A stretch of 64,000 nucleotides of DNA from Eggerthellaceae bacterium. Its GTDB lineage: Bacteria; Actinomycetota; Coriobacteriia; Coriobacteriales; Eggerthellaceae. A program made the position numbers and the translations under genes. The stretch's first letter is position 1. Each line of letters opens with the position of its first letter. Of this stretch, positions 15,346 to 17,947 are shown piece by piece. The stretch lies in contig WRIR01000003.1 in assembly GCA_009782605.1 (NCBI GenBank), positions 1 through 64,000 on the forward strand, written 5' to 3'. Below the pieces are notes generated by a model. It searched no databases. It worked only from the letters and a program-made list of their open reading frames with translations, and had not been told where the DNA came from.

Positions 15346-16686
15346 CTACTTGTAGTCCGCGGGGTTCTTTGAGCCCGAGCCGGTCGTGCGCATCCGTGTC
15401 GCCATCTCGTGGCCGAATTGCACGGCATCCTCGCCGAAGCGCTCGCGCACCTGGTCGGTCGCGCGAAGGAGCCCGCTGCGCTTATCGGCATCCTCCAAGA
15501 TCGGCCTGTGCGCCCGGGCGCCCCCTGCCTGAACCTTGCCGTTTTCGTCAGGTGGAAGCTCGAAGAGGCGCTCCTGGGCCGCCTCGCCCTCGTCGAACCC
15601 GCTCATGCCAACCCCGAGCAGGCGGACCGGTATCCCCGGCCGCCAGACCTCCCGCACCATAGCGAAGAGCAAAGGGGCGAAGAGCAGATCGTCGTCACTG
15701 GCTTCCTCAAGGCGCCTCTGGACGCTTTTCACACTGCGGTCGTCGAAACGCACCTTCAGGCTGAGGGTATGGCCGCGCAGGCCCTTTACCCGCAGGCGCC
15801 GCCCGACTTTTGAGGCGATGCTCGCAAGGACGGAGTCGACCTCGTCGGACGTGGTGAGGTCGCTTGCAAAGCTTATCTCGTTGGACACGGATTTTACCTT
15901 GTCGTCGGCCTCGACAGGCGCGTCGTCGCAGCCCTTGGCCCGGACGTGCATTGTGGCCCCGTTCTTCCCGAAGAGGCGCTTGAGGAAGGGGAGCCCTGCT
16001 TCGGCCAGCCCGCCCAGGGTCTCGATGCCGTGCCGGTGCAGCTCGCGTTCGGCCGCGGCGCCGATGCCGCTCAAGGCCCGGACGGGCAGGGGGGCCAGGA
16101 AGGCCTTCTCGCAGCCGGGGTAGACGACGGTGAGCCCGCGTGGCTTGTCCATGTCGGAGGCTATCTTCGCTACGGTCTTCGAGGTTCCCAGCCCTATAGA
16201 GCAGGTCAGGCCAAACGCCTCGACCCTGTCTTGGATACGCTGGGCGACAGCCACCGGATGCTCGGTGTTATGGGCGGTGGGGCTGACATCGACAAAGGCC
16301 TCGTCGATGCTCACCTGCTGGACGAAGGGGCTTTCCCGGTCGAGGACCTCCATGACGCGCCGCGACATCTCGCGATAGCGCCCATGGTTGCCTTGCGTCC
16401 AGATGGCGTCGGGGCACAGCGTCCGCGCCGTGGAGGCGGGCATTGCCGAGCGCACGCCGAAGGCACGCGCCTCATAGGAGGCGGCCGCCACGACCCCGCG
16501 CTTGTCCGCGTCCCCGCCGACGACGACCGGCTTTCCCCGCCATGCGGGATGGTCCAGCTGCTCGACGGAGGCAAAGAAGGCATCGAGGTCGACCAGGAGG
16601 ATGGCGGGGCCGGCCCACGGCTCGAAGGACGGCTTTCCAGCCGGCTCGGGGCCCAGGGCTTCCTTGTCCGAAAAAGTTCTATCCAT
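15346..16686 (-). CDS. dinB: DNA polymerase IV (Y-family)
   Basis: About 446 residues. ILLVDLDAFFASVEQ carries the first catalytic aspartates, VSIDEAFVDVS the second acidic pair, and the YEARAFGVRSAMP segment is typical of DinB. A Lys/Arg-rich little-finger domain follows. The ATG at 16686 gives a ~27-residue lead before the catalytic core; an ATG 50 codons upstream is open but would add untypical sequence. No GAACnnnnGTTC LexA box of the kind before lexA (54531) lies upstream, so SOS control is not evident. The C-terminal tail is rich in Arg/Gly/Ser and lacks a clear canonical clamp-binding peptide. Confidence 0.92.
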   Translation of the reverse strand: MDRTFSDKEALGPEPAGKPSFEPWAGPAILLVDLDAFFASVEQLDHPAWRGKPVVVGGDADKRGVVAAASYEARAFGVRSAMPASTARTLCPDAIWTQGNHGRYREMSRRVMEVLDRESPFVQQVSIDEAFVDVSPTAHNTEHPVAVAQRIQDRVEAFGLTCSIGLGTSKTVAKIASDMDKPRGLTVVYPGCEKAFLAPLPVRALSGIGAAAERELHRHGIETLGGLAEAGLPFLKRLFGKNGATMHVRAKGCDDAPVEADDKVKSVSNEISFASDLTTSDEVDSVLASIASKVGRRLRVKGLRGHTLSLKVRFDDRSVKSVQRRLEEASDDDLLFAPLLFAMVREVWRPGIPVRLLGVGMSGFDEGEAAQERLFELPPDENGKVQAGGARAHRPILEDADKRSGLLRATDQVRERFGEDAVQFGHEMATRMRTTGSGSKNPADYK

Positions 16687-16813
16687 TGCAGGAAATAGTC
16701 TAACATGTGGCGCCCCGGCTCCGCGATATATGCTAGGATGTTCTTCCTTTGTTGCCTCGCAGGGCTTGTGCCTTTTACTGGTAGAGAGAACGGCGCGAAG
16801 GGAAAGGTCTTCC

Positions 16814-17947
16814 ATGACGGCTTTGTTTGGCCCCAAATCGCATACCGATGTCCGCGAGGTTTCGGCCGTGACCCTCGACCAGGACCTCTATCTTCCCTAC
16901 GAACTCCGGACAGAGCTGAGCTGGATAGACTTCTCGGGTACCAACAACCCTCTGGGCACCCCGCAGTCCTTTGTGCGCGTGATGCACTCGGCGCTTGTCG
17001 ACGGGGGGCTCGGCTTCGTCCCCGACCGCGAGGCGCGCAAGTTCCGCAGCATCCTCGCGCGCCGCTTTGAGCTGAAGCCGGAGTCGTTCTTATGCGGCAC
17101 CACGACAAGCGAGATGATACGGGTCGCGGCGCAGACCTTCCAGCCCGGTGCGGTCGGCGTGTGCGTCCCTACGCTGTCGGCATCCCTCAACGCGGTCATC
17201 AACGCCGGGCACGAGGTTGTGGAACTGGCCAACCGCCATACCTTCGTTGTGCCTGATGCCTCGACTGCACGGCGCAACGGCGTCGTCTTCGATGCGGCGA
17301 TGCTGGCAAACCCCACCTATCCGACAAGCCGCCTCCTTCCGAGGACGACCCTGGCCAATTACCTTGAGAGCTGCAAGTGGGTCATCGTCGACGAGAGCCT
17401 GATAGAGCTTACCTTGGGCGGGGAGAGCATGGTCCCGCTCACCGAATCCTACCGCAACCTCGTCATCGTGAGGTCCCTCTCGCATTCCTTTGCGATGCCG
17501 GGCGTGCCCATCAGTTACTGTGTCGCGCATCCGGACACGATAGAGCAGATGCAGCATTTCCACGACAGTTCGAGCATTTCCATGTTCGCCGAGGTCCTGG
17601 CAGAGGTGGCCGCCTCGGAAGAGGAGCACATCGAGAACGCGCGCGAGCTGCTTGAGACCGAGATCCCCTGGATGCAGTGCATGCTGAACCTCATCCCCGG
17701 GATACACATCTTTCCCGCCGAGGCGAACTTCGTCATGTGCTCCTACGAGCGGGGCGACGTGCCCGACCTCGCGCTCGGCGACACCGACGAGCTCGTCTCC
17801 CGCCTCCAGCTGGCAGGCTTCCTCGTGAAGAAGCTCGAAGGGATGCCGGGCATCATGGATTCCAAGCATTTCTGCGTCGCAGTACGCACCCGGGAGGAAA
17901 ACACACGCTTCCTCCAGGCCCTGCGGGAGATCATAACCCTTCACTGA
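16814..17947 (+). CDS. Aminotransferase-fold protein lacking the PLP lysine (pseudoenzyme candidate)
   Basis: A 377-residue protein resembling HisC/CobD-type fold I aminotransferases over its whole length. The C-terminal VRTREENTRFLQAL matches the family's substrate-carboxylate region and VIVDES keeps the cofactor Asp. The Schiff-base lysine region reads VRSLSHSFAMPGVPISY (codons tcg cat tcc at ~17488), where active enzymes have S-[K]-x-[FYA]. Lys is replaced by His, the following GLR arginine by Pro, and the NPNNPTG loop by NPTYPTS. This suggests a non-catalytic or atypical role. It starts at ATG 16814 and is divergent from dinB. Confidence 0.8.
   Translation: MTALFGPKSHTDVREVSAVTLDQDLYLPYELRTELSWIDFSGTNNPLGTPQSFVRVMHSALVDGGLGFVPDREARKFRSILARRFELKPESFLCGTTTSEMIRVAAQTFQPGAVGVCVPTLSASLNAVINAGHEVVELANRHTFVVPDASTARRNGVVFDAAMLANPTYPTSRLLPRTTLANYLESCKWVIVDESLIELTLGGESMVPLTESYRNLVIVRSLSHSFAMPGVPISYCVAHPDTIEQMQHFHDSSSISMFAEVLAEVAASEEEHIENARELLETEIPWMQCMLNLIPGIHIFPAEANFVMCSYERGDVPDLALGDTDELVSRLQLAGFLVKKLEGMPGIMDSKHFCVAVRTREENTRFLQALREIITLH

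Follow-up and report, generated by a model that had tools for sequence, protein, structure and literature searches.

Fold I proteins without the PLP lysine are already known. SPTLC1/LCB1 of serine palmitoyltransferase is a fold-I subunit that lacks the lysine, is kept by selection, and forms a heterodimer with an active paralogue. The NDP-sugar 3-dehydratases E1, ColD and SpnQ, also of fold I, have the lysine replaced by histidine and use PMP (PMC8987622). Here we describe a lysine-less gene from an Eggerthellaceae bacterium, found in a stretch of 64,000 nucleotides that is called the window. The search of the open-access literature revealed no paper that treats Eggerthella together with dinB and aminotransferase, or Eggerthella lenta together with pseudoenzyme or DNA polymerase IV.

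Gene and predicted fold

The window encodes a fold I aminotransferase-like protein, and the coordinates and residues given in the original prediction (SLSHSFAMPGVPISY, NPTYPTS and VIVDES) were recovered.

16814..17947, + strand: lysine-less CobD-fold gene, 377 amino acids plus stop, open reading frame intact
17660..17701, + strand: family motif EIPWMQCMLNLIPG, residues 283-296, within the long interdomain helix and just beyond it

The 377-aa protein matches PF00155 over most of its length with 57.8 bits, above the Pfam cut-off of 19.7. The matches to TIGR01140 (CobD, near whole-length alignment) and TIGR01141 (HisC, nearly whole length) score 167.2 and 121.5 bits, below the curated cut-offs of 290.55 and 276.55, respectively. 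PF00155 is the sole Pfam domain in the 377 aa; neither the N-terminal winged-helix domain that is a hallmark of MocR/GabR nor a DegT/DnrJ/EryC1 match was detected in the Pfam scan. The AlphaFold2 model, obtained with an alignment of 42 sequences, has a pLDDT of 84.6 and a pTM of 0.84, with residues 1-35 unsure. Its top PDB matches in Foldseek are the four CobD structures 1LC5, 1LC7, 1LC8 and 1LKC, with TM scores of 0.79-0.84 (best 1LKC and 1LC7), and the CobD fold is thus predicted to be preserved in the lysine-less protein. Ten residues of the family motif (E283, I284, P285, W286, Q288, C289, M290, L291, L293, and G296) are invariant in one alignment of the family (A1), and the helix spans residues 270-292 in the predicted model.

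Cofactor and substrate positions

Residue equivalences are those of an alignment with CobD from S. enterica (1LC5), and residues were counted per column in 75 distinct family sequences and in 22 outgroup relatives from lysine-bearing groups.

17309..17332, + strand: NPTYPTSR, residues 166-173; CobD N157 is Y169 and G160 is S172
17390..17392, + strand: D193, the retained pyridine-N aspartate (CobD D185); D in 75/75
17483..17485, + strand: H224 at the PLP-lysine position (CobD K216), codon cat
17507..17509, + strand: P232 at the PLP-phosphate arginine (CobD R224); P62/H11/N2 in the family, R in 22/22 of the outgroup
17873..17875, + strand: C354 at the substrate-carboxylate arginine (CobD R337); C66/S5/L4 in the family, R in 21/22 of the outgroup

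As originally predicted, the PLP lysine is replaced by histidine and the following arginine by proline (H224 on K216, P232 on R224), and the cofactor aspartate of VIVDES is retained as D193 on CobD D185. The adjacent E194 (E186 in CobD numbering) is likewise invariant (75/75). The K216 column contains E35, V10, T9, D5, I4, A4, H3, S2, N2, and others including M in the family, and K21 and A1 in the outgroup. Histidine occurs in three of the 75 sequences, namely the window protein and those of two sister species. Orthologues were expected to share the substitutions; this holds for the loss of the lysine and of Arg224, never kept (0/75), but not for histidine itself. Since the site drifts across ten residues and is never lysine, the change is best read from the alignment as a lysine loss and not as a lysine-to-histidine exchange. 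A special role of H224 was rejected because of the same drift.

The other cofactor contacts have changed as well. The N157 column, Asn in 22/22 outgroup sequences, holds Y57/F10/W6/C1/I1 in the family, that is, an aromatic residue in 73/75 and Asn in 0/75, and the nearby R173 is present in 75/75. The F108 column is mostly Pro and the Y56 column drifts among the 75 family sequences, while the R323 column is still mostly Arg and the S213 column contains Ser, Asn or Thr. Every cofactor or substrate anchor checked is therefore replaced, except the aspartate and, partly, S213 and R323. Weak cofactor binding is conceivable, given the retained D185 and the Ser/Thr/Asn at S213. The two functions first proposed were a ligand-binding or regulatory pseudoenzyme and an enzyme using PLP or PMP without the lysine. 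A conserved pseudoenzyme is supported, but PLP/PMP use is disfavoured because N157, R224, Y56, and F108 were lost with K216, and a bulky aromatic residue stands at N157 in nearly all members.

An enzyme similar to E1 and ColD would bind PMP non-covalently and use the histidine as the base in place of the lysine. Such lysine-to-histidine enzymes exist, and the window protein and its two sister species do have the histidine. However, the residues found there in the majority of members are E, V, T, D, I and A, N157, R224, Y56, and F108 are gone, and the DegT/DnrJ/EryC1 match is missing, so that we consider this explanation very improbable.

The C-terminal substrate-carboxylate region was originally described as retained, which the alignment contradicts: VRTREENTRFLQAL is present without that arginine. 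CobD R337, known from CobD and from aspartate aminotransferases as the residue that binds the substrate carboxylate, corresponds to C354 (Cys in 66 of the 75 sequences). The VRT arginine of VRTREENTRFLQAL, R358, aligns to CobD R341 and not to R337.

Conservation is higher in the pocket columns than in the remaining ones, with a mean entropy of 1.09 vs 1.55 (permutation p=0.008, family thinned to 31 representatives), for a column list that follows CobD residue roles. Eight columns are fixed in different states in the family and the outgroup, four of them at active-site positions (172, 229, 232, and 354). The pattern is that of a pocket re-specified and then held, with the lysine and Y56 sites released. 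Three cysteines are near-invariant, C309 (74/75), C289 (72/75), and C354.

These cysteines, together with the new near-invariant polar residues R173 and D193/E194, are what a retooled enzyme would be expected to have, in which the remade pocket catalyses a PLP-independent reaction via R173, D193-E194, C354, C309, and E303. Nevertheless, the fixed residues are possibly structural, and no metabolic-gene operon was found around the family gene, whose neighbours are dinB and variable housekeeping genes. To our knowledge PLP-free catalysis has no precedent in fold I, which also counts against a retooled enzyme, and we regard it as unlikely.

Distribution, history and selection

The protein search covered 138 Eggerthellaceae genomes and the profile search 397 Coriobacteriales genomes. 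Sixty-three out of the 138 Eggerthellaceae genomes, including the source genome, carry the gene, and no other carrier was found in Coriobacteriales. Among the 397 genomes, carriers reach at least 429 bits with the profile, and the next match scores 151 bits. In a wider sample of 296 genomes of the phylum, no member was detected beyond Eggerthellaceae, and the top other matches reached ~164 bits. The lysine motif was recovered in six of seven such outsiders, and all six have the canonical lysine (SLTK). An independent contig scan found carriers in Raoultibacter, Gordonibacter, Enteroscipio, Hugonella, Curtanaerobium, Denitrobacterium, Senegalimassilia, and many gut and rumen MAGs.

In a tree with the 22 relatives from lysine-bearing groups, the family is monophyletic with a branch support of 100/100, and its stem measures 1.24 changes per site. 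With this support, a single lysine loss on the family stem would be the simplest history. Mapping the presence of the gene on the DinB tree requires about six changes, which suggests an old gain followed by several losses, for example in G088. This genome does not have the gene, its congeners G089 and G090 do, and its vacant site lies between CopA and DinB.

Values of dN/dS range from 0.013 to 0.099 in the 15 pairs with measurable dS; the gene is under strongly purifying selection and is not decaying. No internal stops were found in any listed family copy, and about 50 columns are invariant. A sequencing error or a dead gene, which orthologues with the lysine or neutral decay would have indicated, is thus not the explanation, as lysine occurs in none of the 75 orthologues. 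The original prediction also pointed to a dapL in the window that keeps its lysine. A pattern search of the window for canonical PLP-lysine motifs gave a single hit, SLSKTYNMTGWR (57083, minus strand), which fits this dapL. A functionless leftover kept through linkage to dinB would agree with the patchy presence among G088, G089 and G090, yet it is contradicted by the selection data, the intact reading frames and the invariant columns, and is hardly credible.

The copy of Gordonibacter pamelaeae 7-10-1-b (L057 5001-5843; also G067) has a match that starts at residue 95, 501 bp from dinB. The N-terminal part is absent or out of frame in the assembly, and the other Gordonibacter copies are full length.

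Genomic neighbourhood and intergenic region

The gene is divergently oriented to dinB, and the region between them contains promoter-like boxes.

15346..16686, - strand: dinB (DNA polymerase IV), divergent neighbour, with Pfam IMS and IMS_C
16697..16739, no strand assigned: back-to-back promoter-like boxes, hexamers 31 bp apart
16697-16705: -10-like box of dinB, reverse complement TGTTAGACT
16731-16739: -10-like box of the gene, TGCTAGGAT

In 58 of the 62 carriers searched dinB lies divergently upstream, with 128-531 bp between the matches (the 63rd carrier, G118, was outside the dinB search). The four remaining searched carriers comprise two with contig breaks (G126 and G014) and two of one genus without dinB (G091 and G093). 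That genus, g39, carries the pseudoenzyme gene with no dinB found in G091 (L043) and G093 (L044), and its third genome, G092, is reversed, with dinB only. dinB is also present in most Eggerthellaceae genomes without the pseudoenzyme gene. The outer flanks have been repeatedly rearranged (DegV, IleRS, CopA, GT2, and Pta, on either side), and the dinB junction stays. A CopA-type ATPase with a CsoR-like regulator, identified by sequence reading alone, adjoins the pair in several genera (L036, L037, L062, L064, and L065).

An extended -10-like box toward the gene was found in 48/48 loci and one toward dinB in 42/48, both being present in the latter; the 48 loci include near-copies of one genome from two collections, so the counts overstate independence. 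The hexamer spacing is 31-32 bp in most loci across genera, with leaders of 51-164 bp. This conserved geometry suggests a putative overlapping bidirectional promoter. For a LexA-type box, the intergenic region gave scattered imperfect matches, none of them conserved, and the Rfam search of the window for RNA elements returned tRNA only. Distances of the family and DinB correlate with r=0.81. This value falls within the range of the other neighbour pairs, and a special co-evolution with DinB was thus rejected on this measure.

With a shared divergent promoter, the protein might be a PLP-free regulator or accessory factor of pol IV, possibly with a ligand-gated pocket; we offer this more specific role tentatively and consider it rather doubtful.

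Cobalamin context

The gene cbiB (PF03186) was found in 28/137 Eggerthellaceae genomes and in 19/62 carriers searched, and it is not adjacent to the family gene. A role in cobalamin synthesis is disfavoured, as cbiB is missing from most carriers. These results bear on an inactive subunit paired with a lysine-bearing homologue, as in SPTLC1/SPTLC2, for example with CobD in cobalamin synthesis. CobD is the nearest enzyme in fold and profile and CobD-type proteins are dimers, both in favour of such pairing. Against it stand the low cbiB counts and, in several of the carriers with cbiB, a lysine-bearing CobD that lies beside cbiB and away from the family gene. HisC is a conceivable partner too, but we judge such pairing improbable.

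In a MAG of genus g45, a 3 kb locus (L083, G120:C40:1630-2601) contains a CobD-type ORF beside cbiB that reads VKSFTASYAMAGLR, with Lys replaced by Ala, the Arg retained, and near relatives that keep the lysine. This is a separate, perhaps recent, lysine loss in a true CobD position. In the source genome, a 766-codon frame on contig C7 (L003) ends C-terminally in a lysine-bearing aminotransferase domain (KSISKSYGIPGLRLG) and is possibly a fusion.

Proposed function

Taken together, we consider the protein to be a PLP-free CobD-like pseudoenzyme with a remade pocket, which acts by binding and is expressed alongside dinB, with a probability of roughly 0.6. Catalytic residues are lost across orthologues that are under purifying selection, as is characteristic of pseudoenzymes. 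A single loss of PLP chemistry, on the stem branch of this family specific to Eggerthellaceae, would have been followed by retention of the protein as a PLP-free binding protein. The aromatic side chain that replaces N157 would occupy the room of the pyridine ring and block PLP. The protein may bind a ligand or a partner protein through its remade pocket and the EIPWMQCML helix specific to the family, and act as a sensor, regulator or scaffold that would be co-expressed with pol IV from the overlapping bidirectional promoter.

Automatic names such as aminotransferase and threonine-phosphate decarboxylase cover genes of this kind. Metabolic reconstructions of Eggerthella, Gordonibacter and relatives may therefore assign a reaction that the protein cannot perform as CobD does. 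For a widespread enzyme fold, the family shows in clean form how a cofactor is lost, with one stem, drift of the lysine site, and re-fixation around it. Through its near-fixed pairing with dinB, the family can be linked in a testable way to induced mutagenesis in gut Actinomycetota.

Comparison with known systems

Similar to CobD (L-threonine-O-3-phosphate decarboxylase), the family has the same fold, a near whole-length profile match, and the retained D185 with its surrounding prolines; it differs in that CobD K216, N157, R224, Y56, F108, and R337 are all replaced. HisC (histidinol-phosphate aminotransferase) has the fold and domain layout in common with the family, which lost the PLP residues, and the source genome possesses a separate lysine-bearing HisC-like protein (L002). 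In E1, ColD and SpnQ a conserved histidine is catalytic and PMP is bound, whereas in the family the site drifts and the cofactor contacts are lost. Like SPTLC1/LCB1, the family is lysine-less and under selection, but no dedicated active partner was seen for it.
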